Assembly: GCA_013368375.1 (NCBI GenBank)
Contig: JAACJP010000001.1
Coordinates: 992,001-1,056,000 of the forward strand
Direction of reading: 5' to 3'
DNA length: 64,000 nucleotides
Source of the DNA: Tricholomella constricta
Lineage: Eukaryota; Basidiomycota; Agaricomycetes; Agaricales; Lyophyllaceae
A model generated the notes under the pieces. It made no database searches and was not told the DNA's origin. It saw only the letters and a list, made by a program, of their open reading frames with translations. A program made the position numbers and the translations under genes. Of this stretch, positions 32,328-59,890 are shown piece by piece; the first letter of the stretch is position 1; every line of letters starts with the position of its first letter.

Positions 32328-32620
32328 AGCAAGCCCAAAGAGCGGTAAATCAGGATATGTTCCGTCCCAATTTCAGCCACCAAGTGTGTGGTGTTTGCTT
32401 CTCTCTTAACTTCAACCATCTCTCCTTTCTCCCCTTTTTTTGTTTCTGTTGCTCAGCTCTTTTCATTTGCTCCTGCTTCCAAGCTTGACTATGACATCTC
32501 CCGCACAAGCCTCTTCACCAATGTCACTTCCAGGGGCCCAAGAAATGACTCCGGAGGAACTCGAAATGCAGGCAATTATGTGTTCAAGCCCACCACCATT
32601 TCCTGACAGTGGTGCCAATG

Positions 32621-32854
32621 TGTAACGGTTGTACGGGGTTGGGGGATCCTTGCGAGACACCAGACACGTTAAGCTAGACCAATCTGTGGGATTCTGCTAA
32701 GTACGTGTACAGGGTGAAGGTGCAAATGATTATCTAAGCATACACTGTACAGGACATTTATATACGCATAACAAAGATGGTCGTGCATTACCAGAAGGTA
32801 ATGCCAAACAGGTCGCGTCTCAATATAGACGTATTGTAACGCGCCGTCGTTACA
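32621..32854 (-). repeat. Gypsy-B 3' LTR
   Basis: TGTAACGG...GTTACA ends. On the minus strand it holds a TATATAA box (plus-strand TTTATATACGC at 32757-32767) and the hairpin 32785-32804 (GCATTACC-AGAA-GGTAATGC). Followed by CACCCCCCTTTGA, the polypurine tract on the minus strand. Confidence 0.92.
32785..32804 (-). other. LTR hairpin, 8-bp stem with 4-nt loop
   Basis: Stem GCATTACC/GGTAATGC around AGAA. Same loop and closing CC/GG pairs as Gypsy-A but different stem bases on both sides. Repeated at 43085-43104 in the 5' LTR. Confidence 0.75.
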
Positions 32855-33007
32855 CACCCCCCTTTGAGATCAATGTATGATCTCAGCAGATGGATGTGCA
32901 TGGTTATTATTATAAGTACAAAGCGTGAGTATACAACTCCCGCTCAATTAGTGATCGCGTATGTATTCGACGACTACCATGACTGTGGCGTACACTCGAC
33001 GTTGTCG

Positions 33008-35656
33008 TTAAGCCTTCTCGACTACATCCATCGCATGGTCATCAGAAGCGTTAGCCTCTGGTAGAAGGACCAGTGGTGCGGATGAACTAGATGGAGCAGA
33101 GGGTGCTGGCGACGTAGTGGACTCGATAGTTGGGAGCGGAGGACCTTCCACCATAGGTGGTGGCGCAGGCGGGTCAGTGGTATTGTTAAACACCAGATCG
33201 CCGTCGTAGAGTACAGTAGCTTCGCGGTCACGTCCGGTGATGAATTTCATCGACGTGATGTCGTATCCTACAGGGTGTAGGCCGCGAGCGTGCGCAGTGT
33301 CCAGTCCTCGCTCTTTCTCGCAGTCGAGTAGTACGTGGAGTCTAGCGATATCATCGCGGGTCGGCTGTCGCCATCCATCCCATTGAGGAATGGCCGGGGG
33401 TATCCCGTATCGACATAGCCGAACAAGTTGATCGTCGTCCACATTGTCATATAGTGTACGATCAATTGTGGTTCCCGTATAATGCGCATCCAAGTAGTGG
33501 AGGCCGTAGGGATATGCGTGATCAATCCAAGCGACGGGTAGTCGATTAGCTAAAAGCGTACGGATTACGTCCGTTTCGGTTAAGTTGGCGGCATGCTCCT
33601 CAGGAAGAGCTAAGCGACCAAGGCTTGCTGTAGAAGGTAAGTGGTCGGGGATGCGATCCAATGGGTGAATGGCATTCCACGAGTCCACCGCTTCTTGATA
33701 GAGGTTCGGTCGAGCAATGATCATGGCGTATAGGCGCATGAACGCGACTCGAGATGCGGCTCGGGTAGGGCTCATGGCACGACCAAGGGCGTACCCGACC
33801 ACAGTGGGGAAGTGGATCGAGAAGTTATAGTCGATCACTAGACCGCTGTATACGTTGTCTAGGCCTGGTCTTCCGTGGTGTACAATATATTGTCCCCACA
33901 CATTGAAGTCCAGGGCTTGCGATACCGATGGTATGGGTAAACCCGCACCTCGGGTTCGAGGGTTGCGTGCTGAAGTGGACAATACTCCAGCGGGCGGTGG
34001 TAACACAGGTCGTGTCCACGCAGCGTCATCGCGTATCGATGGTTTGTGAGCCGGATCGAAGTATTCTCGTTGAAGGATAAACTTCATAGTCCGGTCTCTG
34101 TGGGGTTCGGCATATCGGGAAGCGATATGATAGAAATCCCAGAGCAGGTAGTGGGCTTCCACACGTTCGGTGTCCATGTTGAAGTTATCGTCACGGAACT
34201 GAACCAGATTGCGGATGTCTCGAGGGGACATAGGGAACCCGCGAGGTGCACACTTGTACAAAGGTGAACCTGTCGCATTGAATGCGGTCTTGTGTTCACG
34301 TTCGTATTCTAGAGCGCGACTAGCGCTCTGAGAAGCAAACACCGTATTACTGTACGGTGACCAGTACAGGCGTCGGTGAAGTAGTCCACCAAACGCGTTG
34401 TGGCGTTCGGGAGTACCATTGATGTGTAGTACGCCAATGGTATCTGGAATGCGTCCGATGAATGTCTCGAAGTTATACTTCAAGCGTTCGTTGGCTTCTC
34501 GGTCTGCAGCAAGGCGGTCGCGGCGGACTGAGGCGTTGTGCTTCATTCGTAAGCTACGCTCGTCGGCGGTTTCGCTTGCTGGTTCCTCCTTCAGCGTACC
34601 GATGGTAGAGGGCTCTACAGTCTCTTGCATCGGTTCATCGGCAGGAGAGCTAGCGTCAACCAGTCGTACATCGTCGACGGGCATCTGCTCGGGCACCGCA
34701 AAGGCCTGACGTATCGTAAGCACAATACGTCCAGCATCAATGTGCGGAGGTACGCCAAAAGGAAAGGGTACCTCGATAGTGGGGATCACTAGAGGTACTT
34801 TGGCAGCGCTTGTGGGCGCAGATCCTATTTCTTGCGCTGGCGCCGTGGACTGCACCGATGTGGGTGCGGTCTGAGGACCCTGCGTCCGACTACGCTTGTC
34901 GGTATAAGGCATCGCGTTCGGCAATGCGGGGCGCTTACGTAGCGCGCGTTGCAGCTCCTCGGTGATGTGGCGTTTAGCCATGGTTTGCTGATCAACTTCT
35001 CGTTGAAGGCAGTCAATGGTGTCAAGTAGTTGTCCTATCACGACCCTTGCCATTCCATCATGGATAAAGTCGACTACAAAGTCGGGTGCTACTCCGACGG
35101 TCTCGAGGCGGTTGAATATACCGTCTGGGTTCGTTCCCATATTAGCATGTGGTGCGTTGCGTGGCGCAGCATGCATACCTCGAGTATTTCCGTGAGAGTT
35201 CGAGGGATTTCCTTCCTTCTCTTCGACGGCTCGTTCACCCCCCTTTGGGCGGTGTGGTTTGTTACCACCACGCTGTTGTGAGGGGCGTCCCATCTCGACG
35301 CTTCTGTTCTTAGCATCAGGCAGCTGTCCAGGCTCGAGTTGCCCTGCTCCATGTCCATCGACATCCATTGGAGCGTGCAGGCGCTCAACGGCGGGTCCAG
35401 GAGCAGGCGTCTCGCCTGTGTTGGAAGGATTCTGTCCTTCGGACAGCTGATAGCTCGGTACCATTGTTGGCTGGTATGCTATCGATCCAAACGACAGTGG
35501 AGACTGTGCTTGGTTTTGCGGTTGCGTAGTTTGTTGCGCATGTTGTACGCGAGGTGAATTACTCGTAGCGCTGCGGTTATTGCGACCGCGGCGTCCACGC
35601 GTTCCTCCCCCTCTTGAGTTTCCTCGAAAACTCAGTGATTCTTGTCCAGACGACAT
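33008..35656 (-). CDS. Gypsy-B extra ORF downstream of pol, unknown function
   Basis: 882 codons starting MSSGQESLSF, about 140 nt after the end of pol. Homologue of the Gypsy-A ORF at 13085-16039: coiled-coil block (VVDFIHDGMARVVIGQLLDT), RIPDTIGVLHING, APRGFPMSPRD, TRGAGLPIPS, FMRLYAMIIARPNLYQEAV, LHYLDAHY, NVDDDQLVRL, PPAIPQWDGWRQPTRDDIAR. The N-terminal 170 residues (Gly/Arg/Gln-rich, RGGGTRGRRGRNNR) differ, so only the central and C-terminal parts are conserved. The ORF is fully open although gag and pol of the same copy each carry disabling mutations. No transmembrane or signal segment seen; function unknown. Confidence 0.85.
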   Translation of the reverse strand: MSSGQESLSFRGNSRGGGTRGRRGRNNRSATSNSPRVQHAQQTTQPQNQAQSPLSFGSIAYQPTMVPSYQLSEGQNPSNTGETPAPGPAVERLHAPMDVDGHGAGQLEPGQLPDAKNRSVEMGRPSQQRGGNKPHRPKGGERAVEEKEGNPSNSHGNTRGMHAAPRNAPHANMGTNPDGIFNRLETVGVAPDFVVDFIHDGMARVVIGQLLDTIDCLQREVDQQTMAKRHITEELQRALRKRPALPNAMPYTDKRSRTQGPQTAPTSVQSTAPAQEIGSAPTSAAKVPLVIPTIEVPFPFGVPPHIDAGRIVLTIRQAFAVPEQMPVDDVRLVDASSPADEPMQETVEPSTIGTLKEEPASETADERSLRMKHNASVRRDRLAADREANERLKYNFETFIGRIPDTIGVLHINGTPERHNAFGGLLHRRLYWSPYSNTVFASQSASRALEYEREHKTAFNATGSPLYKCAPRGFPMSPRDIRNLVQFRDDNFNMDTERVEAHYLLWDFYHIASRYAEPHRDRTMKFILQREYFDPAHKPSIRDDAAWTRPVLPPPAGVLSTSARNPRTRGAGLPIPSVSQALDFNVWGQYIVHHGRPGLDNVYSGLVIDYNFSIHFPTVVGYALGRAMSPTRAASRVAFMRLYAMIIARPNLYQEAVDSWNAIHPLDRIPDHLPSTASLGRLALPEEHAANLTETDVIRTLLANRLPVAWIDHAYPYGLHYLDAHYTGTTIDRTLYDNVDDDQLVRLCRYGIPPAIPQWDGWRQPTRDDIARLHVLLDCEKERGLDTAHARGLHPVGYDITSMKFITGRDREATVLYDGDLVFNNTTDPPAPPPMVEGPPLPTIESTTSPAPSAPSSSSAPLVLLPEANASDDHAMDVVEKA

Positions 35657-35797
35657 TAGGTGCGATTTCTAGTGATAGTGGTAGTGCACAAGGGGGCAGA
35701 GAGAAAATTTTTCGCTCCCCCGATCGGAGCTCCACTCGATCGAAGTGATCGAGTCCAGCCACGCTGTGGCTGTGTGGCGCACATTGCATGCCACACC

Positions 35798-38700
35798 TCA
35801 GCGCAGCTTTGCGAGCTGCAATATACGCTTCACCCCCTGGAGCTCGAGGTATCTATCGAGAGCTGCCAGGGATTCGCAGTGCTCACGCGGCTCCCACGTA
35901 GTGTCCCCCAGGGACCATCGAACTTGAAATTCAATGGCGCCCTCGGACCACCTATGTCCCAGAATCTCCTCGATGAACCACTCGTGGTCGTCTGGTGCAC
36001 CAAAGTCGTAAGGCTCTGGGTGCGCTTGATTCGGGAACAGTGCGTCCTCCGTAGCGTAATACAGTCTCAGCACGGACACATGAAACTTCGCGTGTAAGCG
36101 GCGCTGCTGAAGCGCGGAAGGCAGTTCCAACGTATAATTTGACGTTTCTGGCTCTGCCTTCAAGACACGATAAGGCCCCACGAACTTGGGGCATAACTTG
36201 CGTGCTCTACCCTTTGGAAGATTTAAGTTCTTCGTAGATAGGTAAACTAAATCACCAGTGCTAATCTTAGGATCATCACTCCGGCGTTTATTCGCATTCA
36301 GCGCTTGGAATACGCGGGCCTCGATAATAGCATCGTGGGCTTCCGCGAGATTCGAAAGGGCTTGTTCTGCAAACTGGCGAATACCCCGAGGAATCACATT
36401 ATCACTGCGAATTTCCTTGATCATGGAGGGCATGTATCCGCTGTTGAGTTCGAATGGCGCGTATTTGGTTGTCTCCGATATACTCGCATTAAGTGCGAAC
36501 TCGGTCATATCTACGCGATCAACCCAGTCTTTCTGGTCGTGGCGCACCACAGTACGGAATATTTGTCCGATACTGCGGTTTGCATGCTCAGTCTGTCCAT
36601 CGTTTGAGGATGAAACGATGTGGACATGAGCAGTTTCGATCCAAGGATCTTGTGAAGTTCTCGCCACCATTTGGAGGTGAACTTCGAGTCCCTATCGCTC
36701 ACGATGGAACTAGGAAGACCATGCAAACGAACAATTTCGCGCATATATATCCAGGACAACTCCGACGCTGTCATGCGCATATGTACTGGAATTAAATGCA
36801 CCATGCTCGTCATTCGGCACATAATAACCCACAGGTAAATATAGCCTTTAGATTCAGGGAATGGACCTATAAAGTCCGTTCCGATGGAGTCCCATGGTTT
36901 AATGGGCACTGGTAGCGAATGTATTTTGCCGGCAGGTTTTTGATTCAAACCCTTGGCTCGCTGACATGACTCACAAGTTTGACAGAACTTGCGAACTTCT
37001 GCGGTAATGGTGGGCCACCAGTACCAGCGTCGGAGGTATTCTGTGGTACGCTGGGCTCCAAAGTGTCCAACGGATGTATGTGCTTGTTCTATGAGTTGAG
37101 TGATCAATTTACGATCACGAGGAACACATAGAACTTCTACGCCGGCTGGATTCGTTGTCCAAATTAACGCATCTCGGTGTGTAAAATGCGTGAATTCACC
37201 GGGTTTGTCCATTATTACCGTGAACAATTTATCGGTTTTGTAACCTTTCCGTACTACCTCCAGGAATGAAGCATCGCCATTCCGTGGGTGTGGGTCTGGA
37301 TGCAGCGCAGGTGCGGGCTGTTGAAACAATGCCTCGCCCAACGTTTGTTTGCATTCTGAAGGAGCCCCATCCGGTTGTTGACCGGTCGAGGATTCAGACT
37401 GTACGGTAGGTTGCTGAAACTCTTCCAGGATGGCGGCTTCGATTTCTCGATCCTCACGTCGTTCCTGAAGGCGGCGACTACGCCTCACTTCCACGTCCTG
37501 CATGGCTCGAATTTCAATAACTCGTTCAGCCACTTCTTGCAGTCGTGAAGGTGGGAGATCCTCTCCGTCTGGATCTATTCGCGCGTCAGCGCGTACATAG
37601 TCGTTGACGCTCTGCACCTCATTAGGTGCATCTCCTTCAAAGTAGCGGGATAAGCAATCAGCTACTTTGTTCAGTTCTCCTTTTACATATGTAATGTCAA
37701 AGGTGAACCGAGACATATGATCGTTCCAGCGTCGTTGACGCGGTGACAGATTTACTTGAGTTTTGAAGAACTCTAGCGCTTTATGGTCTGTGATTACATG
37801 GATATTGTAACCAACCAATTTATCTTCCCATTTTAATAGGGCTTCTAGAATCGCAAGAGTTTCGAGCTCGTGTACAGCATAATTTTGCTGAGCGCTCGTG
37901 AACTTCTTCGACATGAACCCAGCGGGCCGACATGTCTGCCAAGTGGGTCCTTGGCCGTACATGGCTCCGACGCCAGTCTTCGAGGCATCGCATATAAGCC
38001 ATATAGGGTCTTTATTCTTAACGTCTATAGGCTGTATGACTGGTGTCCTACAACATATTTGCTTTATCATTTGAAAACACCGATCATGGATCGGTCTCCA
38101 ATGAAATGGTAACCCGTTTTGCGTCATGGACATGAGGGGTCCCGTATACGCAGTAATATCAGGTAGGAAGTTACCCAAGTAATTTACTAGTCCGACGAAC
38201 CGCTGAATATCATTATGTGATCGCGGTGTTCGCCATTCGCGTATGCGGCTTAGTTTATCGACATCAGGGTGTATACCGCGATCATCAATAATGTGTCCAA
38301 GGCAATCAATGCGTTCAGCGTATAATTCGCATTTCTTCCATTTCAGATACAAAGAAGCAGCTCTGAGTCTCTCGAATACTATTCATAGGTGTTTCTCATG
38401 CTCTTCTATCGATTCTGAAAAGATAAAGATATCATCCAGGTAGACATGCATGAATCTACCAATCAAGTCTCGAAAGGTTGACGTCATGAGTCTCTGGAAT
38501 GTGGCAGGTGCGTTGCAGTCACCTATCTGCATTATATTGCTGACATAGGTGCCGGCGATAGTTGCAAAGGCCGTTTTATGTACATCCTCTGGTCGTATAT
38601 GCACTTGCTCATAGGCGTCGGTTAGATCAATTCTTGATCTAATCTTCGCCCGCGCCACATCTTCCCGAATAATTTCTTGATCGGGTAGTGGTGTCACATC

Positions 38701-39663
38701 TTTCACGGTGTTATCGTTCCGTTGACGTGCGTCTAGTGCAGTTCGTAGCGAACCATCTTTCTTCGGTATGCACAGTAGTGGGGCTGCTTGGCTGACGGAC
38801 CGTGGCTCCCACCACTTAGCATCCACATAGCGGTTTATCTTCGCGTGGAATTCTTCTCTCAGCGAATTTGGGCACCGCGGTAAGTGATAGTGATACCGTG
38901 CATTCTCATCGATTAAATGAATCTCATGGTTAACTTCCCTCCACGGTGGTAACGTGTTAGGAGTTCCGTTCACCATATCTTGGAATTCATCATGCCATTG
39001 CTGACGTAGGCGGGGATAATCTTCTGTAGTGAGTTTACTTTTGATTTTTGTATTCCCATCCTTTCGTCGCTTCCCTTCCGCGGTTGGTTTCTCATACCTA
39101 TCGCGGAGGGCTTGTATCCGTTCTTCCGTCTCATCTGGTACTTCCAGTCGTACTTGCCGTGACTGTGGCGTACTTCCTGTAGTACTACCAGCTATTGTCC
39201 TGACGTATACTGACAGTTCGGATATCTCGTCTGGGCGCGCATCGCGATATATCTCGCCTTGAGGTGCTTGGACTCGCGTATATGCACGCATGGACGCAAT
39301 TACCTCGTTCCATTCAAATGGCATTCGAGGATCGTACGCCCAATCGACGTGCGGATGTGGTACAGGTCGATCCCAAAATGTTCGCTTGGGTTTCTCCTGC
39401 GCCACTTGTGGCGGCACTTGTGGTTCCGGTATTTTTATCTTCTCCTCAGTGCTATCCAAATTATCGATTTGCGAAGATTTGGGTTCTTTGTGCTGCATTT
39501 TGTGCGTTTTGTCTTTCTTTTCATACTCGGTTGACCCTTTCTCCCCCTGAAGAGTATCTATATACTCTTCCTCGCTCATCAGTAGACATGGCGCGTCCGA
39601 TGGAAGACTATGCATTTTGTGCACCTCTTCCTCCGGAACGTCTTCTACTGTGACTCGTGGGAG
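35798..39663 (-). pseudogene. Gypsy-B pol with nonsense and frameshift mutations
   Basis: Open after the UGA at 39664 through RT (LDARQRNDNT, HVYLDDIFIFSES) to a TGA at 38383-38385. There Gypsy-A has Arg in EDHLRVVFERLR, so the change is CGA to TGA. It continues in frame from 38352 through RNase H (WLICDASKTGVGAMYGQG) and integrase (AHTSVGHFG, CQTCESC, GTDFIGPFPES, SDRDSKFTS) to STSFHPQT. There one G is missing relative to Gypsy-A and the frame shifts (near 36600). The remainder (GQTEHANRSIGQIF, then chromodomain-like EFQVRWSLGDTTWEP) lies in the frame of 35798-36670. Two lesions therefore inactivate it. Confidence 0.9.
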
Positions 39664-39666
39664 TCA
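39658..39666 (-). promoter_or_regulatory. Putative UGA readthrough site between gag-pro and pol (Gypsy-B)
   Basis: Minus strand: CGG GAT TGA CTC CCA, with pol continuing in the same frame as L-P-R-V-T-V-E-D. The V-T-V-E-D after the stop is shared with Gypsy-A. Confidence 0.65.
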
Positions 39667-42600
39667 ATCCCGGGGTTTATCCGTGGTACGATAGCGGCGC
39701 AGCCGTCCATCATTATCCCGGAGGTCTACCTTCGTGGCTTCGGTTGATACACCGTTGACCACAACTGTATTCGTCGCGAAATCAAGGATAACTCCATGCT
39801 TTCGCATAAACGGTGTACCGATAATCATATCATATCGGTCAAAGTTTGCTATATCGACATACAGCATTTCTTCAGATCCATGTGTTTTAACTAACGCATC
39901 AGACCCAAAGTTCACTGTCGAGCGACTTCCAATCGTTCCCAATTGCAGCGTTATTGGTGCATCCAACGGATACACGCGCAGTCCCGCTACCTGGGAGAAT
40001 GCTGGGGTTATGCCCGTAGTTGTACTACCCGAGTCCCATAGCGTCCACGCGTCGTGTCCGCCTACATTGACATATGTGGCCAAACACTCCTTGTCGTCGC
40101 GCTTATGCACTGGGCGAGCCTTAGCTACTTTCGATGCGCGAAGATGTACTTTGCGCATCTTTACCTGGCGAGTTTCATCCAACGGTAATTCCGTTATCGC
40201 CCTCAGGACTTCAGTCTCGCTGTCTCGGGAGTAGTAGTCATTATCATAGACATCGACCTCAATGAGTCCATCGCTGTCGCTGTCTACCAACGACTCAGGT
40301 GGATTATCCGCTTCATTAGCAGAGGTATGTCCACTCTGGTCATCAGCCTCATTCTCCTGATCCATGTCCAAATCATCGTCCTCTTCATCAACTGCGGTCC
40401 GAGCTGCTCGTATCTGAGCACGCACGGGGTACGGTTTCTGTTTACATTCTCTCGAGTAATGACCTTTCTTTCCGCATTTGTAGCAGATGACATCTGCCGC
40501 TGGTGACGGATTCGGTGTCGGAGATGAATGCAGTTGGGGGCGTTCCAACTGTCTATTGGGTGTCGCACCCGAGTTCGGGTCGGGGCGTGCTTGCACTCCC
40601 ACCTTTCCTCCTCGTCCACGCAGTGGCGTAGCCACCACTCTCGCGTGTAGTCCTCCTGCTAAGGCGGACTTGCGAATGAAAGTGGTACCGATTCGCCCAC
40701 CTCCGCGGGGCCTCGAAGATGTTACTTCAGGATTCCGGCGCGAACGACGGCGTGAGTTTCGAGCAAGGTAGTGCGCAGCTGTCTTAGAGGCAGACTCATA
40801 CGCCTTCGCCTCGGAGACAAACTCATCGACTGTATTTATCTCAGGTGACAATCCACCTTCCTTAATTAGGGCGACGAGCATATCTTTGGGTATACCTTCC
40901 AGGAAGGTATCACGCACGGTGTATTCGTCTGGGAACACAGCCATATTTTGTGCGTGGTCCATGAGCTCATCATAAAACCCTTGAACTCCGATGCTCTCAT
41001 TATAAGTAGCATCGTAGAAGTCCTCTCGTGCATCCTGCATTGTTGACGGCTGTACAAAGCGATCATACAATCCAAGAATGACGTCTTCAAACGTCCAATG
41101 GCGTTGACGACGGTTTACATGAACGACGTGGCGCTGGTACCATGTCTTAGCTTCTCCTCTGAGAAACTCTGGTACAACGAGCACGCGTTCACGGTCGCGT
41201 TCGTCGCCACCATACTGGCATGCGGCTAAATGAACGCACACGTCCGTTAGCCACCTTTCAAGGTCGCTAAACTTGGTTCCTCCAGCGTATGGAGTTATAG
41301 TTTTGGACGCGTCAGATCGATTCAATTTACTACCCTCGGGAAGTTGCAGGCGTGTACCGAGTTGTTCTTCTAGCAGCGCTTTCAAGCGTACATGCATAGA
41401 ATCTCGGTGTTGTTCCACGGCTTCAGTGACTCCAGGGTTTTGGGAAGTTGACCGCACTTGCGGAGGCATCGAGAACCCACGCCCAGGGGTTTCACTTGAT
41501 CTACCTGGGTTTCGGGATATAGGGTTCACGACGCTCATTCCCCTACCGCGTCCACGAGCATTGGTAAAATGCGTACGAACTACGGGAGTCTCCTGAGGAG
41601 GTCGATCTCTAGCAAATGTTTGCTGTTGATCACGTCCCTGCAGGTGCTCATCGTAGGGGGCACTCTGCACATTATTATCCTGTTCGTGAGGTTGTCCAAT
41701 CGACTCGAAATAAATGCTCTTCATTTGGTCGACGGGCTGACGTCCGATAAAGATCACTCCCTGGTCATCGTAAACCGAATGACCCTGTTGCTGCAAGTCT
41801 CGATCCCGCTCGCGCTGGAGGGCGGCTCTGTCTGCCCACGAGTCTGCCATTGGGTATCGACGGGATGCATTCCCAGGGACTTGTATCACAGGCGGTGATG
41901 TCTCAGTCGTGAACCGTAGTGTTTGAGCAGGCGCAGGCCTTTCCTCAATCGGTTTGACGCCATCGTGTGTTTCATCCACACGATCCTCGATTTTTACAGG
42001 CGTGGTGAGCACAGGGCCGATGCTGTCGGCTGCTTGTGTTGTTCCTACTGTTGCTTGCGAGCTTTCGGTGTCGAAGACCTCGATGCTTCCAAGACAGTGG
42101 CCATAGAATAGTTATCTATTTCGAAGCGAATGCCTTCGATAACTAGCTTTACGAATTCGATACTGTTCGTATCAGGCTCCGTGTCCATGATCGCACAGTG
42201 TACGTAGGCGGAGCCTAGCGCGTTCTCATTCATCTGAGTACGTCGACTAGCGTCTGGGACCATCGACTGGTATTCTGACCAGTAGAGGTGCACCTGGCGC
42301 TTGAGGAGGGGCGAGAACCTGAAGATGTTCAGGGTCCCGTTGTCCGATTCTGCCGTCGAGCTGACAGGTGATAACGCCCGTCGTCGAAGGTACGCACTTG
42401 TAACCGACTGGTTATCCGTGTTGGCATGTACCGGGGCTTGTACCGAAGACTGTGGCACAGCAGTGGGGGCCGGGGAGGCGGCGTATGCAGCGTACGCTTG
42501 TTGCAGAGCCAATCGTACGGGGCCATCGTCCGATGCATGTCTAAGACTCGCATCTTCAGCAGTTTCGACCCCCAGAGTGCCTAACCTTGCGGCTGGGTGC

Positions 42601-42806
42601 TTTGTGGCGTGCATTGATAGTAGCTCCAGGCTACTTACCACTGTTGGTCCCTCTGCTGCTGCTACACCTTGCCCGACTTCGTCCGAATGACGTTGAGGCG
42701 GCACATAGGCTATAGGAGGTCGCAGTACTGGCGGATCGACGATAGATTGTATCGTTGGTGTGTTTTCAGAGCTGGTAGCGCTCAGTGGCGCTCGGTTTGG
42801 ATCCAT
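39664..42806 (-). pseudogene. Gypsy-B gag-protease, one frameshift
   Basis: The N-terminal part lies in ORF 42806-42045 (253 codons; FRFSPLLKRQVHLYWSEYQS). The main part (about 782 codons, ending 39664) is in another frame, open upstream past its first start codon, so one indel near 42045-42060 separates them. Main part: LRFTTETSPPVIQVPGNASR, retrotransposon capsid region (AKTWYQRHVVHVNRRQRHWT, LYDRFVQPSTMQDAREDFYD), basic tract, CCHC knuckle CYKCGKKGHYSREC, acidic tract, aspartic protease TLWDSGSTTTGITPAF and MIIGTPFMRKHG. Supplies capsid, nucleocapsid and protease of the particle. Confidence 0.85.
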
Positions 42807-42920
42807 CGCAGATAGATCTTCGTTTCAGGGTTGTGGTGATGGTGATGGCGCTGATAAGCGAGTCGACGTCGAAGATAGAGAGCAGTTAAGCAGATAGCAA
42901 AGCTGGGTAGCTTAAAAAAG

Positions 42921-44176: not shown

Positions 44177-44179
44177 TCT

Positions 44180-48463: not shown

Positions 48464-49830
48464 ACTCGGACCACCACCACCACCACGCCACGACAACGGC
48501 GACGACGACGACAACAACGACAACAACGACAACAACGACAGCAACAACGACAACGACAGTGGTAGGAGAGGGCCGAAAAAGGGCGCCCACCGACCGCCAC
48601 GTACACTGACCACCACCACCACCACGGCCACACGACTCACAGCACCCAACGGCCCACAGCACCACCACCACCCTGACAACACCTCCACCACCACCACACC
48701 ACCACGACGACGGCCACCACACCACCACCACCACCATACTACCACGACGACGGCGACGACCCCACCACCACGGCACTACCACGACGACGGCGACGACCCC
48801 ACCACCACAGCACCACCACCACCACCGACGACAACGGCACAGCACACCACCACCCCCAGCACGACGACGACGGCCACACGACGACGACAGCCACACGACC
48901 ACCACCACCACCACCACCACCACCACGGCCACCAGCACACCACCACCACCAACCCCAGCACGACAACGACGGCCACACGACAACGACGGCCACACGACCA
49001 CCACCACCACCCACCACCACCACCACCAGCACAATGACGACGGCCACACGACGACCACCACCCACCACCACCACCACACGATGACGGCGACGGCACGAGG
49101 ACACCACCACCACACGACGGCAATGGCGGCGACGGCACGAGGACACCACCACCACACGACGGCAATGGCGGCGACGGCACGACGACACCACCACCACCAC
49201 GGCGACGGCCACGTCGACGGCACGACGACACCACCACCACCACGGCGACGGCCACGTCGACGGCACGATGACACCACAACCACGACCACCACACCCACCA
49301 CCACAAGGACACGACCACGACCATGACCACCCCACCACCACAACGACACGACGACGACGGTGACGACAGCACCACAATGACGGCCACGACAACACCACAC
49401 CACGACCATCACAACGGCCACGACAGCCACCACACCACCACGACGGCCACCACACCACCACCACCAGGACACCACGACAGCACCACCACCACCACCACCA
49501 CCACAACACCACGATGACAGCACCACCACGACGGCCACGACGGCCACTACCACAACACCACGACGGCCACCACCACACCACGATGACAGCACCACCACCA
49601 CGACGGCCACGACGGCCACCACACCACCACCACCAGGACACCACACGACAGCACCACCACCACCACCACCACAACAACACCACGACGACAGCACCACCAC
49701 GACGGCCACCACCACACCACCACTACGGCTACGACGGTGACGCGACTCGGCCACCGTTGCGACAGCCACGGCGATGACGACGGCCTCGCCGCCACCTTGC
49801 CCCGCCACCACCGCCCCACGGCCACGACGA
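48464..49830. repeat. CCA/CGA-rich low-complexity array inside the hAT element
   Basis: About 1.37 kb of CCACCACCA runs broken by ACGACGGCCAC, strongly strand-asymmetric (C/A on plus, G/T on minus). Very long ORFs exist in several frames on both strands but encode only His/Thr/Pro/Arg or Trp/Val/Gly runs. Confidence 0.9.
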
Positions 49831-50183
49831 CGACTATGATTATTTATTTATTTATTTGTTTTTGTAGAATAGAAAATACATGTTTTTTTTGATATATCAT
49901 TATCTCTAGAGTGCAATGCCCACAGAGGGTGGATGACTGTGACTTTGGTAGAGTGTTCCCAAGTCCTGGTTTGTGGAGTCCATGTGGACTCCACAGGGAA
50001 TCCTCTTCATATTGTAGGGGATTTGTAATTTTTTTATAGACTTAGATGTTCCTTGTGGAGTCTATGGATTCCACGGAATCCACGGGGAATCCACGGGGAA
50101 TCCACAGGGAATCCACAGGGATTCCGCGGACTCCATGGACTCCATGAGGAACACCAGGGGGAGTGTAAAGTACTGCACCGTTC

Positions 50184-52157
50184 CCTGCTGGCGACCTCAA
50201 AGCCAAACAAGAGTTCGCAGCTGGACACAGGTGGGCGAGTGTCATTGACTTTGCAGCAGGATACTACGCGGTCCCACTGGACGACGCCTCCGTCCCCTAC
50301 GTCGCGTTCTACGTCGAAGGCAGAGGGTACTACGTCTACCTATGGATGCCCTTCGGCCTAACAGGAGCACCAGCAACATTCTGCAAGATGGTCTCCATCG
50401 CACTCGACGATATGATCGGTCGAGAACTCGTGAACTGGATGGATGACATCTGCATCCCAGGCGATGTCTTCGACACCAAACTCGCCAACCTGAGGCGCTT
50501 TTTCGAGCGTTGCCGCTCGAAGAACCTGTCCATTGCCCCGACCAAGACCAAGCTCTTTCAAACGGACGTCCTCTTCGCAGGGGCAATGATCAGCAATCAA
50601 GGCATCCGCCCCAACCTAGACAAGGTCGGAGCGGTGGTCAACTGGCCAAGACCGGAGACGGCCCAACAGCTACTCAGTTTCCTGGGTCTGTCCAATTACT
50701 TCCGCCGCTTGATAGCTAACTACGCTCGCATTGCAGCGCCACTCACGGACCTCACACGCGACATCAAGGTAGAGGCACCGAGTGCGAACTGGCGGGTACG
50801 CAAGGGGGCTTACAAACGCGCACTGACAGCGACGTCATTAAAGGATAAGTGGGGCCCCGACCAGCAGAAGGCCTTCGTGACGCTTAAGTGCATGCTATCC
50901 GAAGAGCCCCTGCTCAAGGCGCCCCAATATGACGGCTGCCAGTTCCGGGTCACCACAGACGGCAGCATGACGGGCTTCGCAGGCTTCCTGTCGCAACCGT
51001 TCACATCCACGGACAGCAACGGCAAGGAAACCACACATTGGCACCCGATTAGCTACTGCTCGAAACGGACCTCGCGCAGTGAAGAGAAGTATGAACCATT
51101 TTTACTCGAGTTTGCTGCGCTCAAATACAGCCTCGACGAATTTGCGCCGTACATCTACGGCTCACCTATCGAGATCGAGACCGACTGCCAGGCCCTACGC
51201 GACTGCCTGGTACAGGAGAAGATGAGCGTCCACCACAGCCGGTGGAAGGAGATGATCCTCGCACACAACATCATCTCGATTTGCCACCGCCCCGGAGTTG
51301 ACAACCCAGTAGCGGATGGCCTCAGCTGCATGTGGGAGGACCGTGATCGCTCGGCGACAGATGGCTCAACATGGTCAGTCCTCCCAGATTGGGAGGCATC
51401 CAAAGGTATAATTAATGACATCTTGAGCGTCTCGATGGCCCCGGACACACGACACCCACTGGAAACACGCTTCGAGGACGACATCTTCTTCAAGCCCATA
51501 GTACGCCACCTTCTAGGCAGGACCCACGACGACCCCGCACCAGAACAGTGCAAAGCGGCCCACCGTGCACGCGACTTCATGATAGAGAGCGGCCGACTCT
51601 GGAGGGTCAGCACACGCACCAACGACCGGGTCTCACGGACGGAGTGTATCCCGAGCAAGGATGGCTTTGACAAAGCCCTCGAAGCGCACATCTCGAATGG
51701 CTGCTTCGGCCCTGACCACACACAGCTGCACCTCCGGGACCGGTTCTTCTGGCCAGGGATGTATACTGACTGTAGACAGGCACAGCTCGAATGCCCGAAG
51801 TGCAAGTCCTTTGGGGCGACAACACGAAACTCAGCATTGCAACCAATACGTCGCTCGACACCCTTCGCCCTGATCGCCGGCGACTATCTCTCGCTCCCCA
51901 CAGGCAAAGGCGGCTTCAAGACCGTGGGCCTATACATTGATGCGTACTCGAACCTTCTTTGGCCCTCGAAACTGAAGACCGCCGGAACCGGGAGAACGAC
52001 GGTAACGTCGCTCAAAAAGATCACTCACGAATTTGCAGCCCCCCACTCGTTCATGGCCGACGGAGGAAGCCACTTCGACAACGCCGAAGTCAATGCGTTC
52101 TGCAACGAGAACGGCATCACCCACATCACCACACCCGCCTATGCGCCGTGGGTGAAC
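50184..52157 (+). pseudogene. Gypsy-C pol, part 2 (RT, RNase H, integrase start)
   Basis: Continues the RT exactly: PAGDLKAKQEFAAGHRW, VIDFAAGYYAVPLDD (first Asp), WMPFGLTGAPATFCKM and VNWMDDICIPGD (MDD catalytic pair). RNase H follows: VTTDGSMTGFAGFLSQ, EEKYEPFLLEFAALKY, IETDCQALRD. The integrase zinc finger is HISNGCFGPDHTQLH ... CPKCKSFG, and the core has AGDYLSLPTGKGG and FMADGGSHFDN (two of the DDE residues). It stops at HITTPAYAPWVN where the Copia element is inserted. No stop or frameshift within this piece. Confidence 0.9.
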
Positions 52158-52432
52158 TGTTGGCCTGGTCCTAGTTCTCATCGCTTACGTTACCATTCAC
52201 ACGTGACTCTCGATACATTTGCCTCCGTTCCATCGTTTACATCCTCAGTCGTCTTTCCCTTACTATCACGACGCTGAGGATGTGAGTATCTCCAGTCACT
52301 TATTATTTCTCCATACCTTACTGACAGACTTGTAGTGATTACTTGTCTTTGTTCTAGGTACAAATATAGTCGTCTTTCCCTTACTATCACGACGCTGAGG
52401 ATTGATTACTTGTCTTTGTTCTAGGGTCATCA
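52158..52432 (+). repeat. Copia-2 5' LTR
   Basis: TGTTGGCCTGG ... GGGTCATCA. Contains an internal near-duplication: TAGTCGTCTTTCCCTTACTA-type segment plus GATTACTTGTCTTTGTTCTAGG, each present twice. Identical base for base to the 3' LTR as read. Confidence 0.94.
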
Positions 52433-52445
52433 GGTTATGGGCCCC
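52433..52445 (+). promoter_or_regulatory. Copia-2 primer-binding site, half-tRNA type
   Basis: GGTTATGGGCCCC directly after the LTR, complementary to the anticodon region of initiator tRNA-Met. Confidence 0.8.
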
Positions 52446-52577
52446 GCCTAGAACGGATTCAATTCAATCGCCTCGGTTTCGGAGGCCTCGGCGACTCATT
52501 TTGATCGTATAGATCTTTCTTTCTTACCGCATATAGTCACCCCGATCTTTCACGATCGGTCAATTGACTCCGCGACG

Positions 52578-54728
52578 ATGTCCAATCCACCACACCACGG
52601 CCAAGGATCTGCTCAACCGGGTCGTCCCACTTTTCTTGCGCCTCGCTCTTACATTCCCCGACGTGTTCTTTCGCATCCGACAAGCGCATCCGTAACTCCA
52701 CGCGGACCTTCGTCAGGACCAATTTTGGCCGATCCAACCTTGCCCCAGTCGCTCGCCGTTTCGTCGGCACCTGTTTCTCCATTTTTTACTGCACCACCTC
52801 CTTGGTCTCAAACTCAACACGTTCCTCCTCCTTCTTCGTCGCAGTTTAATACAGTTCATGTTCAACCACCAGTACGATCTTCTTCAACCTCTGTTCCTTT
52901 ACTTAATAAACCCCCTTCTACATCACCTGGACATGGACAATCCTCTCGATCTTTTCTACAGACTCCACGTTTACCTCCCCCTGCTCCGATATCATCCGCC
53001 GGTCTTTCGTATGTTTCTTCAACTCATCTTCCTATTCTTCAAAACCCTTTCCCTACCCCCGTGCGTTCTTCTTCAATCCATAGTTCATCCCATTCACACC
53101 ACTCCGATCAACGCTTCTCTGTTACTGGTTCTGTGCATACAAATAATCCTATTGCTCCTGTTCCAATTCGCCCAATCCTTTTCGATGATTTGAACCGTGT
53201 TGTTTCTCCTTCATTCCATACTCCCCTTGCACCGGCTCCCCCTTACTTTCAACATCCATTCAATCCCATTCCGAACGTTTATCATGTTCCTATGGATCAT
53301 TCGCAACATTCGCATCATGCCAGCACTCCTTCACGTACGCTTTCAGCTTCTTCTTTACATTTACCTATGCGACCTGCTTCCGCTCATGTTTCGATCCTTT
53401 CACCGTTGTCTCCATATATCCAACCTCCACTCCCTTATCTGCCGCGCTCGTTACCTGCCTCTCCGGTTCCTCGCATTGTTGCCCCCCCTCCCGCACCTAC
53501 ACGCACTAATTCTACCTATACAAAACCCGATTTTCCAAATTTAACTAGCATTCCTTTTCTTTCCTCGGCGAGCGACTGGACTAAATGGCATTCGGCGGTC
53601 CTTCAGGTCATCGAAGCGACAGGACTCTTCGACCACATTGCTGATGTCCTTCCTCCGGACGTTCTTTTGGATCCGACAGCTTATCCTTCTCTGCCTCCCG
53701 TGATCGACAGAGCGAACTACACTCCCGATGAACTCGACTCTTATAAAGCCTGGTGGGCTCAAGACGACATCGTTTCTTTTGTCCTCCTCGGCAAACTTGG
53801 TCCGATTCCCCTCTCTCTCATTCCTCCGAAGCGGGACGCTTGGGGAAACCCGCAACGCACAGCCCGGGACATCCTTCGTCTACTTCGCACGAAATATGGA
53901 GTATACGATGCAGGCTCTGCTGCGATCGTTCAGGAATCGATCTTGTCGAAGAAAGTCATCGGCGGAGATGTTACTTCGTATGTTGACTCGTGGAGAAAGG
54001 CTGTCCTTCAAGTTGAAGGAACTCATTGGGATTTCTCGTCGTTTGACAAAGTCCAACGTTTCGCCGACGGTCTCCCGCGGACGTACGAGTATGAACCTTT
54101 ATGCGTACTTATTCGTGAAGGCTTCAACACAAACCCCCCTCATGGAGTTATCTCCTTCCACGACGCGTCACAAGCTGCACTCAATATCGAACTCGCTAGT
54201 CGCCGCCTCTCCGCGTCTCATGGTCCGACGACTAGGCGCCAAACCTCTTCATCGTCGACTGTAGCTCCTTCCACCGGTTCGAATCCACCTTCAGCTCCGT
54301 CTGTTGAACCCACTACTTCTCAGGCTACTCGTCCTCGATGCTCCAACTGTGGTGCTCTTGGCCATGTCGCCGGAAATTGCTGGGAACCTGGTGGAGGCGA
54401 TGTCGGCGGTCGTGATCGTTACCTTGCCGCCAATCCTCCTCGCCCTCGTGCACATGTCGCTATCGCTTCTGATACACAGCTTGATCCCGTCGTAGAAACT
54501 GTCGAACCCGAAATTGAATCGGCCTCTGTGCCACCTTCCTCTTATATTTCGTCTGATGCCCCGCTTTCCCCAGTCCCGGACACGGCACTGATTCCGAATT
54601 TGCCAACGCCGCTAGTCCCATTGTCCTCGCATCCTTGGCTGACCGATTCAACGCCATTCTCGACTCTGGGTGTACGGTCCATATTATTCGTGATCGAAAT
54701 TTTTTTTGGACCTACGACACTACGCTAG
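52578..54728 (+). CDS. Copia-2 gag
   Basis: Starts MSNPPHHGQGSA. The first 310 residues are Ser/Pro/His-rich and low complexity. The copia Gag core follows (IPFLSSASDWTKWHSAVLQV, YKAWWAQDDIVSFVLLGKLG, ARDILRLLRTKYG, VTSYVDSWRKAVLQVEG) and a CCHC knuckle CSNCGALGHVAGNC near residue 595. Gag coding sense is convincing to about 54580 (VPPSSYISSDAPLS). From there the protease is read in another frame (SEFANAASPIVLASLADRFN), so the last 50 codons of this ORF are probably not native. Builds the virus-like particle. Confidence 0.85.
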   Translation: MSNPPHHGQGSAQPGRPTFLAPRSYIPRRVLSHPTSASVTPRGPSSGPILADPTLPQSLAVSSAPVSPFFTAPPPWSQTQHVPPPSSSQFNTVHVQPPVRSSSTSVPLLNKPPSTSPGHGQSSRSFLQTPRLPPPAPISSAGLSYVSSTHLPILQNPFPTPVRSSSIHSSSHSHHSDQRFSVTGSVHTNNPIAPVPIRPILFDDLNRVVSPSFHTPLAPAPPYFQHPFNPIPNVYHVPMDHSQHSHHASTPSRTLSASSLHLPMRPASAHVSILSPLSPYIQPPLPYLPRSLPASPVPRIVAPPPAPTRTNSTYTKPDFPNLTSIPFLSSASDWTKWHSAVLQVIEATGLFDHIADVLPPDVLLDPTAYPSLPPVIDRANYTPDELDSYKAWWAQDDIVSFVLLGKLGPIPLSLIPPKRDAWGNPQRTARDILRLLRTKYGVYDAGSAAIVQESILSKKVIGGDVTSYVDSWRKAVLQVEGTHWDFSSFDKVQRFADGLPRTYEYEPLCVLIREGFNTNPPHGVISFHDASQAALNIELASRRLSASHGPTTRRQTSSSSTVAPSTGSNPPSAPSVEPTTSQATRPRCSNCGALGHVAGNCWEPGGGDVGGRDRYLAANPPRPRAHVAIASDTQLDPVVETVEPEIESASVPPSSYISSDAPLSPVPDTALIPNLPTPLVPLSSHPWLTDSTPFSTLGVRSILFVIEIFFGPTTLR

Positions 54729-57700
54729 CGGTACCGGTTGGAACTGCCAACTGCGGGACTCTCACGACACTGGCAAAGGGCGAAGTTCGTTTTCGACTCA
54801 CTCTCGATGGGGTAGACCAGGTTGTTTCCCTTCAGGATTGTCTTCATGCGCCCGATGTCCCTATCAACTTGATCTCGGTCGGCTCCCTGACGGAAAAGAA
54901 CATGCGGCTTGTTTTCGAGAAGAACATTACATCCATCCATCTCCCTGATTCGTCTCCTCTCCTTACGACGCATACAATCAACGCTACGGTCGTACGCCGC
55001 CTGTCTTTTCTCTTTCTGGATTTCGTCCTCCCTCCGGATAATCCCACCCGCTCTCCGATCGATCCAATCGCTCTACCTGCAATGAACAACAAGATTCCGA
55101 CCTCGTATTTCCCCATGTCGAACCCACTCCGAACCTCTGGCATCGCCGTTTTGGTCACCTCGGCCTTGACGCCACTCGAGCAGTTCTTACTAAATCCTTC
55201 GTCACGGGCGTGAAGTACTCGGGTCCCTTCTTGGACACTCATTGCATCCCCTGTCTCGTTGGCAAGCACCCCCAACGACCTTTTGACCACCTTGCCCGTC
55301 GAGCGGATCGTATCTGCGACCTCCTCCATATGGATACATGTGGCCCCTTCCCGATTCAGACTCCTCATGGAAAAAGCTTTTTCCATGTCATTCTCGATGA
55401 CCATTCGAATTACGGGTCGACTGCTCTCCTGGCGCATAAGGATGAGGCTGTAGCTCACTATTTATCGACGGAGGCATCATGGGAACGGAAGTCAGGCAAC
55501 AAAGTTCTTGTGGTTCGCTCTGATGGCGCCGGCGAGTTCACTGGTGGGGATTTGAAAGCCCATTTCATCTCTCGTGGAATACAACATCAAGTTACCGCTC
55601 CTTACGCTCATGCCCAGAACGGTAAAGCGGAATGCTATATTCGGACCCTTGAAGAAACGGCGCAGACCCTCCTCGCGGAATCTGGTCTACCTTCGTCCTT
55701 TTTCGGTGACGCTGTCCTCACTGCTCAGTATCTTCGTAACCGTTTACCCTCGTCGACTCTCCCCTCGGGCTCCACTCCGTTTTTTGTCATGGAGAATTGT
55801 AAACCTGACCTCTCCCATCTTCGCGTATGGGGTTGCCAGTGTTTCGTTCTTATTCCTGCCAAAATCCGTCCCAAGGGTGGTCCAAAGCGTTTTGAGGCAA
55901 TCTTTGTCGGTTATGAGGAAGGTCGCATCGGCTGGAGGGTTCGTGATCTAAATGGAAAATATCACTTCTCTCGGGATATCGTTTTCAATGAAAATGTTCG
56001 AGGATCCCTTCGCCATTCGACTGTCATCCCCACTAGTCCGACCGTTACTTGTCCAACTCCGCCTCTTGACACTTCATCTGCCTCCCCGCCTCCTACCTCG
56101 TCTCCTCCACCCGTAATTCCTGTTCCTCGTCGATCCACTCGTGAGCCAACTCTCACCACTCGTGGCGTTGATCATGCTACAACCATCCGCGAACGTGACG
56201 AACGCTTAGCTCGTCTTCGTGCCGCCCGTGTCTCCCGTTCTGGGGTTGTGCATCCCCAACAAACCCTCCAGGCCATCGACGATTTCATTTCCATTTTGTC
56301 CAGTCAGGCTTTTGATGCTCCTGAAGACGATCTCACCTCTCACGAGGCTGCCGCGATTTCTTTCTATAAGTCGCTTGTAGCATTTCCCGAAACTCTTCGT
56401 CGGAAAACCCAACCTCGTCAATTCGATCTCGACGTTCCTCCTTCTACTTATGAGGAAGTTCTCCTTCACCCTGACGCCGACGTTTGGAAAGCTGCCATGC
56501 AGCGTGAGTATGATAGTCTCCAGGATCTCGGTGTCTTCAAACCGACCATATTGCCTCCTGGAAGGAAGGCTATCGGACTTCGATGGGTTTTTGATTTCAA
56601 GTATAATCCTGACGGTTCGATCATCCGTGGAAAGGAGAAAGCCCGCATCGTTGCACGAGGATTCGCTCAACGACCTGAAGACTACGGCACTACCTACGCC
56701 CCCGTTGCTAAACTCACCAGTATTCGCATCGTCCTCGCCTTCGCAGCTCTATTTAATCTCGAACTTCGCACCTGTGACGCCAAAACTGCATTCCTGAACG
56801 CTCTTCTTATGCACGAAGTTTATGTTAAGCAAATCCCTGGCTTTCCAGAAATCGATCCCCATCTCGTCCTTCTTTGCATTCGCGCTCTCTACGGGCTCAA
56901 ACAGTCGTCCCATGAATGGTATAGTCTCCTCCGCAGGGTTCTCGAGGGTATCGGCTTGATTAGATGCGAAGTCGACCATGCCGTTTTTTATGGCCGTTTC
57001 TCCTCCCCTCCCCATCCCTCTATCCCTATGCCCTTGGACGGCTCTGACCTCATCTTTATCATGCCCGTTCACGTCGACGACGGCCTTGTCGCCACCAACT
57101 CTGAGCCCCTCTATCACTGGATCCTTGAAGAGATGAACCGTCATTTTACTGTCGTTGACCTTGGTCCCGCTTCCCTTTACCTGGGAATTCGTATCACTCG
57201 CGACCGTCCTAATCGCAAGCTTTGGCTTTCACAACGCCCCTTCGTCATCGACCTCCTTACTCAGTATAACCTGCTTAATGCTCGACCAGTTTCTCTACCT
57301 CTTCGACACAAACTCTCGTCTTCTGATCCCATTCCCCCCAACTGTCTACCGGACATTGCGGACTCCGAGATTACGATTCACTACCAACGTCTCGTTGGAT
57401 CCATACTTTACCTCTCCTTGTGCACACGACCAGATTTGGCCTTTACTGCCATGTCCCTAGGCCAGTTCAACGCTAATCCGACTCGCCTTCATCTCCTTGC
57501 GGCTAAAACGGTCCTGCGCTACCTATTGGGTACTGCCGATCTCGCTCTGGAGTACAACTTCGGTCCTACCCCTGTTGGTCCTCCACTTAGCGTTCTCGTC
57601 CCTCGAAACTGCGGTATGATGGACGCCGATTGGGCCGGAGATGAAGACACCCGTAGGAGCGTATCTGGCTACGCTTTTTTCATATACTCTAGCCTCGTCT

Positions 57701-58092
57701 CGTGGAGCTCCGTTCGCCAACGTACTGTCGCTTTATCCTCAACCGAAGCCGAATACATGGCTATCTCCCATGCGATGAAAGAGGCCCTTTGGATTCGCCA
57801 ATTCTTACGTTCTCTCTCGCTCCCTTATCCTCATCCGTTCCCCATGCTATGCGACAACCAGAGCGCTCTCGAAATTGCCAACTCGGACAGCACGTCTTCA
57901 CGTTCCAAGCATATAGACATCCGATATCACTTCATTCGCGAACACTTCCACTCCGGCTCTTTCTCCACATCCTGGATCCCGACATCGGACATGACTGCTG
58001 ATATCCTTACGAAGGCTTTACCTCTTCCGTTGCATACCAAACATTCACGCGCTCTTGGCCTCGTTACTTTACCGTCTGTTACGTCTTCATAA
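54580..58092 (+). pseudogene. Copia-2 protease-integrase-RT-RNase H, one further frame change
   Basis: The protease lies in frame 54635-55213 (FNAILDSGCTVHIIRDR). A change to the frame of 55210-58092 occurs between about 55040 and 55100, where NLWHRRFGHLGLDATRAVL (GAG-pre-integrase) becomes readable. Then come the zinc finger (CIPCLVGKHPQRPF) and the integrase core: MDTCGPFPIQTP, VVRSDGAGEFTG, APYAHAQNGKAECYIRTLEE. RT has FDFKYNPDGSIIRGKEKARI, KTAFLNALLMHEVYVKQIPG and MPVHVDDGLVA (VDD site). RNase H has MMDADWAGDEDTRRSVSGY, ALSSTEAEYMAI and CDNQSALEIANS. It ends LGLVTLPSVTSS. Domains are intact apart from the two frame changes. Confidence 0.9.
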
Positions 58093-58132
58093 TTGTTCCT
58101 TATTTTTTCCGCTCATTATTCACTCCTGCGAT

Positions 58133-58142
58133 GATGGGGTTG
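58133..58142 (+). promoter_or_regulatory. Copia-2 polypurine tract
   Basis: GATGGGGTTG immediately before the 3' LTR, purine-rich and in the expected place. Confidence 0.6.
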
Positions 58143-58417
58143 TGTTGGCCTGGTCCTAGTTCTCATCGCTTACGTTACCATTCACACGTGACTCTCGATA
58201 CATTTGCCTCCGTTCCATCGTTTACATCCTCAGTCGTCTTTCCCTTACTATCACGACGCTGAGGATGTGAGTATCTCCAGTCACTTATTATTTCTCCATA
58301 CCTTACTGACAGACTTGTAGTGATTACTTGTCTTTGTTCTAGGTACAAATATAGTCGTCTTTCCCTTACTATCACGACGCTGAGGATTGATTACTTGTCT
58401 TTGTTCTAGGGTCATCA
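58143..58417 (+). repeat. Copia-2 3' LTR
   Basis: Identical to 52158-52432; followed by the TSD TGAAC and the resumed Gypsy-C integrase frame. Confidence 0.94.
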
Positions 58418-58422
58418 TGAAC

Positions 58423-59144
58423 GGTCTTATTGAAAACGCTAACAAACTTCTACTAGGGCGCCTTAAACGCCTCTGTGCACCCGACCACGACAACTTGGTC
58501 GACGAAATCGACGTCGACCCGAAATCAATCCCGGCCAACTGGCCAGACCACTTTGACGAAGCAATCCGTCAACTCAACAACCGCATCCTACCAGCGCTCA
58601 ATGCAACCCCACGCGAACTACTCTTCGGCCTGCGCCTCCGACCCGACTACATACCAGCCCCACCAAACCAACCGACGACTACAGAGGACGTCGCGACCAA
58701 CTTCACCCTTTCCGACTCATTCCGTGCGGATGCACACTTACGCGCCTTACAAGACGCAGAAAGACGTAAAACGTCTTTCGACAACACATCCCCAATCACC
58801 ACCTTCAACGTCGGCGAACTCGTCCAAGTCTACGACTCAGCCTCCGACTTCAGTCACGCCACCATCAACAAAATTGCACCTAAGTGGTCCCCACCACGCC
58901 TGATCTCAGCTAAGTTTTCCAATTCTTATTCTCTTTGTACAACGGGGGCACACCCTTAAAAGGCATAACACATTCTCATAGAATGTGCCACTATATACCA
59001 CTGCGAGGCACACCGCTTGACCTCCTGAACCCGAGGGACGATCAACCACCAACGCCAACCGACTTGGAGATAGCAGAGGCGGAGGAGATGATGTTTGACG
59101 TGACGTTCTTGACCTCAGGAACGTCGCCCAGGGACGACCTCTAA
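58423..59144 (+). pseudogene. Gypsy-C pol, part 3 (integrase end)
   Basis: Resumes after Copia-2: WVN joins GLIENANKLLLGRLKRLC, supplying the third catalytic acid (Glu in GLIEN). The integrase C-terminus follows: NWPDHFDEAIRQLNNRILPA, PRELLFGLRLRPDY, FNVGELVQVYDSASDF, IAPKWSPPRLIS. A 1-nt frameshift near 58940 shifts reading to YNGGTPLKG and HYIPLRGTPLDLLNPRD, ending SPRDDL at 59144. The region 59145-59303 has no gene and ends in the purine-rich GGAGGTGGGCAGA before the 3' LTR. Confidence 0.82.
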
Positions 59145-59303
59145 AACATTGCACTGTTTACACCAACAGTGCGTGGCTCTCCCCGGGTCATCCGACATGT
59201 ACACATACGTGCTGCTGGGGGAGAGATTTGGTTGGCGCAACAGATTGCGTGCACGAGGAGGACTTCCGACATTCGGGGCGTACGTCACTTGGAGGTGGGC
59301 AGA

Positions 59304-59525
59304 TGTGGCTGTGCCACCAGCACCGAGCGCGGCTAACTCCGGCAGAGTTCGAACCTGACCTGTAGTATTTTCGCAGTAGAACATAATAAATTACCTTCTC
59401 TCATCATTGCGTTCTCCATTGGGCTCGCGCTAGGCTCCTCGACAGCTCATCATTGCGTTCTCCATTGGGCTCGCGCTAGGCTCCTCGACAGTCCCTCTTC
59501 GTGCTCTGAGGCCTAACGGTCTCCA
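59304..59525 (+). repeat. Gypsy-C 3' LTR
   Basis: 222 bp; carries a 46-bp tandem duplication (TCATCATTGCGTTCTCC... at 59401 and 59447) absent from the 5' copy. Otherwise near-identical (GGCGGAG versus GGCAGAG). Confidence 0.85.
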
Positions 59526-59890
59526 GCATTTGGCGCTCTTGGTGAGGATCTGCTTGCCTAATTTCCATGTGCCATCAATATCTGATGCCGGTGGCTTTTG
59601 TTAGCGCAGCCTCTACACGGACAGTGCCACCTTCTGGGACAACGTTGACGCAAAGCTGGTGCTCATTCGAAAAACGGCATCAAATGAAGAGCGGAAAATA
59701 ACCAAGTTTGTCATCACTATACGCGCACTTGAGTTCGACTGATCAACGACATTTTAAAAGGGCTTTTACAGCATATTTGGATCAAGATCGCGAGAAGTAC
59801 GGCTTCAAGGATGCTTGCACTATTCCTGAAGCTGGTGATGCATGGCAACAGGAAGTCGATAACACCATTGATGGCACATTGCTTGCCTGA

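Follow-up and report, generated by a model that had tools for sequence, protein, structure and literature searches.

A seven-exon gene interrupted by retrotransposons

The window analyzed here is a stretch of 64,000 nucleotides (C1:992001-1056000) from the 44.1-Mb genome (118 contigs) of the saprotroph Tricholomella constricta. It holds a gene whose seven exons are spread over approximately 27 kb of the + strand (32491-59890) by inserted retrotransposons, and whose probable origin in a two-gene transposon is the subject of this work. The coding pieces are grouped at 32491-32620, 43160-44016, and 59530-59890 and contain neither stop codons nor frameshifts. Together, the exons sum to 1017 nt, which corresponds to 338 codons plus stop; the original prediction had given the same number of exons but 337 codons. 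All six introns (49-63 nt) are of the GT-AG type. The exons are as follows, with TSD denoting a target site duplication:

32491-32620, + strand: exon 1a, from the start codon to the insertion site of Gypsy-B; matches exon 1 of paralogue L021 (E = 1.6e-4)
43160-43377, + strand: exon 1b
43432-43545, + strand: exon 2, 114 nt
43595-43681, + strand: exon 3, 87 nt
43732-43857, + strand: exon 4, 126 nt
43918-44016, + strand: exon 5a, 99 nt, of which the last 4 are the TSD GCGT
59530-59541, + strand: exon 5b, 12 nt, after the TSD copy GCAT (59526-59529)
59605-59705, + strand: exon 6
59761-59890, + strand: exon 7, including the stop codon

Between these pieces lie two elements with long terminal repeats (LTRs), the second of which contains two further elements:

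32616-32620 and 43155-43159: TSD of Gypsy-B, CAATG, perfect 5 bp
32621-43154, − strand: Gypsy-B (Ty3/gypsy), LTRs at 32621-32854 and 42921-43154; antisense in exon 1
44013-44016 (GCGT) and 59526-59529 (GCAT): TSD of Gypsy-C, 4 bp, one base differing (CG versus CA)
44017-59525, + strand: Gypsy-C (Ty3/gypsy), LTRs at 44017-44176 and 59304-59525; sense in exon 5
47994-48001 and 50176-50183: TSD of the hAT-like element, CACCGTTC, 8 bp
48002-50175: hAT-like element, non-autonomous, 2,174 bp, inside the reverse transcriptase (RT) domain of Gypsy-C
52158-58417, + strand: Copia (Ty1/copia), inside the integrase domain of Gypsy-C; TSD TGAAC, 5 bp

Gypsy-B and Gypsy-C both show the LTRs, the TSD, and the RT-RNaseH-integrase order of Ty3/gypsy elements. 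In Gypsy-B, zinc knuckle, RT, RNase H, integrase, and Tf2-1 SH3 domains scored above the Pfam cut-off, and gag, protease, and chromo domains below it; its LTR gave 40 scored matches of 91 candidates in the genome. The inner Copia element has the LTRs, the TSD, and the integrase before RT that characterize Ty1/copia. The 8-bp TSD and short terminal inverted repeats of the 2,174-bp element are those of hAT transposons. Because no Pfam match to a hAT transposase was obtained in four open reading frames (ORFs) scanned at 46-50 kb, only one of them wholly within the element, it is called only hAT-like, and non-autonomous at most.

Two differences were counted between the 234-nt LTRs of Gypsy-B, one substitution in the 160 positions of the 5′ LTR of Gypsy-C (its 3′ LTR is longer), and none between the 275-nt LTRs of Copia. 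By these counts alone, with no rate applied, all three elements are young. The hAT-like and Copia insertions are later than that of Gypsy-C, and their position inside it agrees with the original prediction. The accompanying claim that the whole insertion history can be read was too broad, because the sequence reveals the order for the nested pairs only and does not show whether Gypsy-B or Gypsy-C came first. Nested insertion alone is ordinary, though it is well preserved at this locus.

Continuity of the gene across the junctions

A DNA search of the genome with the window gene found a single copy only. At the protein level, four paralogous loci were identified (C16, C38, C19, and C41); the annotated T. 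constricta protein D9615_006533 corresponds to the C16 paralogue. The junctions were compared with relatives without first joining the flanking pieces. Exon pieces 1a and 1b both matched, in order, a single exon of a paralogue (its exon 1), and this continuity, together with the perfect CAATG duplication and the LTR pair, bears out the insertion of Gypsy-B in exon 1. At the Gypsy-C junction, homologues P0003 and P0004 continued through the breakpoint (LCAR-LALL-R in P0004, or similar). With one TSD copy discounted, exon 5 measures 99 + 12 = 111 nt. This length and those of exons 2, 3, and 4 (114, 87, and 126 nt) are shared by the window gene and paralogues C38 and C19, for which the exon borders come from gene models built in the present analysis.

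The GCGT/GCAT duplication of Gypsy-C was compared with the only other genomic place found to carry its LTR, a solo LTR at C11:905866-906044 (L058) flanked by a perfect 4-bp TSD, ACGT. This single case supports a 4-bp TSD as the habit of the family, and the predicted insertion of Gypsy-C in exon 5 is thereby corroborated along with the continuous homologues. The solo LTR sits within a relative of Gypsy-A, a further element of the window described below.

An artificial join of unrelated contigs at 43.2 or 59.5 kb was considered, as many-copy repeats flank the exons. Against it stand the TSDs found at the junctions, the single DNA match of each exon stretch, the agreeing exon lengths, the ordered match of 1a and 1b, and the homologues that span the Gypsy-C junction. 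An assembly error is thus very unlikely, with a probability close to nil. The prediction that the gene was intact when hit is supported. The restored frame at each junction is a consequence of the TSDs and thus adds no separate evidence.

Paralogues in a two-gene transposable unit

The C38 and C16 paralogues lie inside a 6.7-kb unit, 99.5-99.6% identical, that occupies two unrelated sites (C38:326192-332872 for the C38 copy). The sequence TA-CACC...GGTG-TA bounds the C38, C16, and C3 copies at both ends. The C41 copy has the left end TA-CACC and the right end CAGTG-TA; in C19 the right end adjoins the gene, and the left end is perhaps ~15 kb away. The simplest reading of the flanking TA is that it represents the TSD of the unit, which is not proven, as no empty site was seen. 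The C3 copy (L068, G000:C3:9218-10658) retains both ends within 1,441 bp, is internally deleted with no space for coding genes, and is a non-autonomous derivative of the transposon.

On the strand opposite to the small gene, the unit encodes a multi-exon transposase-like protein in divergent orientation, and the same layout was found in C19 and C41. A transposase-like gene accompanies all four paralogues in the genome, in C16 with a 13-kb insert between the two genes. This insertion (G000:C16:179375-192461) splits the C16 copy and is flanked by an 8-bp duplication, CTTTTAGC. A Pfam scan of 8 ORFs from two units gave no family above the cut-off; TET/JBP genes were not systematically sought.

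Seven more distant transposase neighbourhoods were searched with a profile of the small-gene family. A diverged small gene was detected near four of the seven (L072, L073, L075, and L076; best E values from 8e-6 to 7e-4), in each case on the predicted divergent strand, with extra weak exon matches mostly in order and one out of order in L076. The seven sequences in reversed form and eight further loci, five of these around transposase exons, served as controls and gave nothing under E = 0.76.

Other species were compared using the best 120 of the 343 transposase relatives described below, with the other 223 left out. Six of 26 family proteins were encoded on contigs of the same size as that of a same-species transposase relative from this set: two in Collybia nuda and one each in Pluteus cervinus, Laccaria bicolor, Crassisporium funariophilum, and Mycena capillaripes. 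Since two of the size-matched contigs comprise only 7,147 and 13,528 bases, the small gene and the transposase must be near neighbours there; the longer contigs would allow any distance between them.

Properties of the two encoded proteins

One transposase exon gave 21 matches at 18 genomic places. The spliced transposase model retrieved 343 relatives from the protein database at E ≤ 0.001 (7,996 candidates scored). The best 120 of these are named "hypothetical", "uncharacterized", or "predicted", one of them also "C2H2-type domain-containing", and none of the 120 carries a precomputed Pfam domain. Among the same 120, D428, D429, the CxxC motif, H662, the HxxxH motif, and E817 are invariant in all non-gapped rows, and D515 is kept in 115 of 117. 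The pattern is that of the transposases of the CACTA-Mirage-Chapaev-Transib (CMCT) clade: D, D, and E, with C(2)C, H(3-4)H, and a third H between the second D and the last E. From sequence, the assignment of the catalytic acidic residues is putative. The ends of the unit likewise agree with CMCT elements, with CA..TG-type termini and a TSD in the 2-5 bp range if the TA flanks are taken as a putative TSD.

With a transposase structure model of middling confidence, all eight Foldseek matches to the PDB at E ≤ 0.001 were RAG1; HzTransib followed at E = 0.096. The predicted fold contains an RNase H-like core related to RAG1/Transib. The alignment of the transposase thus shows the residues conserved in the CACTA/Transib clade, and its predicted fold has RAG1 as the best match. 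The small protein is predicted to be all-helical. A PDB search with its model gave no match at E ≤ 0.001, and a Pfam scan of the gene pieces and relatives gave no family above the cut-off.

A left end of the transposon family and the surroundings of the gene

The window also holds an end of this transposon family:

3626-3727, + strand: left terminal sequence of the transposon family (TACACCGCCAAACGGAC...), 70.6% identical over 102 nt to the left end of C38

The match to the C38 left end had an E value of 1.7e-11 (comparison with two units only). A 17-mer of this end occurs at eight places with ≤1 mismatch in 44 Mb, the window's among them. Among six ends compared, C19:694825 was closest (89 of 101 aligned positions; score 75, shuffle maximum 14). 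The sequence lies 28.9 kb upstream of the gene in matching orientation; by density alone ~0.003 ends would be expected there, though transposons cluster. It may represent the gene's own end, in which case the window copy would have belonged to a now broken unit beginning at 3626.

The left end (3626-3760) is cut by a Copia-like element with a putative 5′ LTR from ~3760. From here to the gene, this element is followed by tandem repeats, Gypsy-A, and a long interspersed nuclear element (LINE). The tandem arrays, with units of 110-171 bp, lie at 5.9-7.9 kb and 9.2-10.8 kb and resemble inverted versions of one another. Gypsy-A occupies 12508-22501 on the − strand and has near-identical LTRs; beside it, at 22481-23335, a gag-like ORF of another gypsy element was recognized by eye and had no Pfam match. 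A pair of 189-nt direct repeats at 23763-24497, with 98% identity and 546 bp between them, resembles a small LTR-type element of the kind of terminal-repeat retrotransposons in miniature. The LINE (~27.2-32.2 kb, − strand) has endonuclease and RT domains and ends near the gene start. Downstream of the gene, a repeat of ~120 bp resembling a miniature inverted-repeat transposable element (60454-60573) has many genomic matches and directly follows 563 bases without a match elsewhere.

Origin of the interrupted gene

Taken together, the window gene is probably a copy of the conserved accessory (second) gene of a two-gene cut-and-paste transposon of mushrooms of the RAG1/Transib type. The gene was intact until recently and was then hit by retrotransposons: exon 1 received Gypsy-B and exon 5 received Gypsy-C, which was in turn entered by the hAT-like element and Copia. 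In intact units the small gene is transcribed divergently from the multi-exon transposase, and its predicted all-helical product might, as a partner of the transposase, bind the transposon ends or regulate transposition. TnpA in En/Spm and RAG2 beside RAG1 are the roles with which such a function may be compared.

Several results weigh against this assignment. For the window copy, searches yielded neither a transposase remnant nor a right end. In addition, three of the distant transposase neighbourhoods gave little or nothing with the family profile: L074 had weak matches only (in order, best E = 0.2), L078 one weak match only, and L077 none. The main rival holds that the host domesticated and kept a descendant of this second gene, which stood alone under selection and was later destroyed by the Gypsy insertions in this strain. 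We consider it unlikely, while granting it a share of the probability in view of the failure to find a transposase or a right end. A solitary, selected gene would also fit the one DNA copy, and the frames stayed open and the GT-AG sites were kept despite only 42% protein identity to C19. In the tree, moreover, the window gene is closest to a Sphagnurus paluster protein (support 86/90), apart from the mobile C38/C16/C19 clade. Speaking for a transposon are the left end upstream in the right orientation and the linkage of family members elsewhere to transposases. Nonsynonymous and synonymous differences per site between the window gene and C38 were pN = 0.40 and pS = 0.70 (197 codons); with the open frame this suggests past selection, but low pN/pS between copies is also expected for genes of an active transposon and does not separate the two origins.

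The original prediction had spoken of a cellular-type gene. In that case, an ordinary gene would have been hit by retrotransposons and transposons would have captured a copy of it, for which the seven exons and the lack of a Pfam family above the cut-off in the scanned pieces and relatives might be adduced. The description is not supported, as all four paralogues found in the genome accompany a transposase-like gene, a linkage that recurs, judged by equal contig size, in Laccaria, Collybia, Pluteus, Crassisporium, and Mycena. We regard such an origin as improbable, more so than a host-kept copy. The best reading of the window gene is therefore that of a second gene left stranded in a broken transposon.

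With this reading the locus is mostly mobile DNA within mobile DNA. A mushroom protein family annotated as "hypothetical" is now linked to a transposase that has a RAG1-type core and no Pfam family above the cut-off; annotators gain a transposon family to mask, and the field of RAG-type transposition another transposase kept with a partner gene. More tentatively, and with the odds rather against it, two-gene transposons that form a class of their own, so far without a name, might be widespread in Agaricales genomes. Their RAG1/Transib-type transposase would have a BAH-like chromatin-reader domain embedded in it, and the divergently transcribed partner protein would be all-helical and of new fold. 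Such a class would be a fungal counterpart to RAG1-RAG2, with the window gene as a stranded partner copy.

Comparison with known systems

A literature search revealed no description of the gene pair or of a BAH-like domain in such a transposase, which is weak evidence, as most subscription journals were outside its scope. Active transposons of another mushroom are the subject of PMC9674265. The Gypsy, Copia, and hAT-like insertions with their normal TSDs resemble known LTR retrotransposons nested in genes and in each other, and the sole unusual point is that the target itself is a transposon-type gene.

Plavaka elements are, according to Kojima 2025 (PMC12730594), CACTA-related transposons of Agaricomycotina with short TSDs, features shared by the mushroom unit. 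Membership in Plavaka was rejected on the termini, which are TGT..ACA or CATCA..TGATG there and CACC..GGTG or TACACC..GGTGTA in the unit. The nearest system found in the literature is the ESTA lineage, whose families with TET/JBP genes are placed under Pucciniomycotina in the same work. ESTA elements share with the unit TA outside the ends (as TSD, putative in the unit), CA..TG-type termini, RAG1 similarity, and C(2)C and H(3-4)H between the second D and the last E (PMC12730594). In this comparison of features, the mushroom unit differs from them by its conserved second gene.

With RAG-like (ProtoRAG) and Transib elements, the unit shares a RAG1-type catalytic core, according to the predicted fold, and a second gene beside the transposase. 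Its ends differ from those of RAG-like elements. The second gene is predicted to encode an all-helical protein, for which no RAG2-like match was found in the PDB search. Whereas RAG1L and RAG2L are reported to be convergent (PMC7204232), the gene pair of the mushroom unit is divergent.

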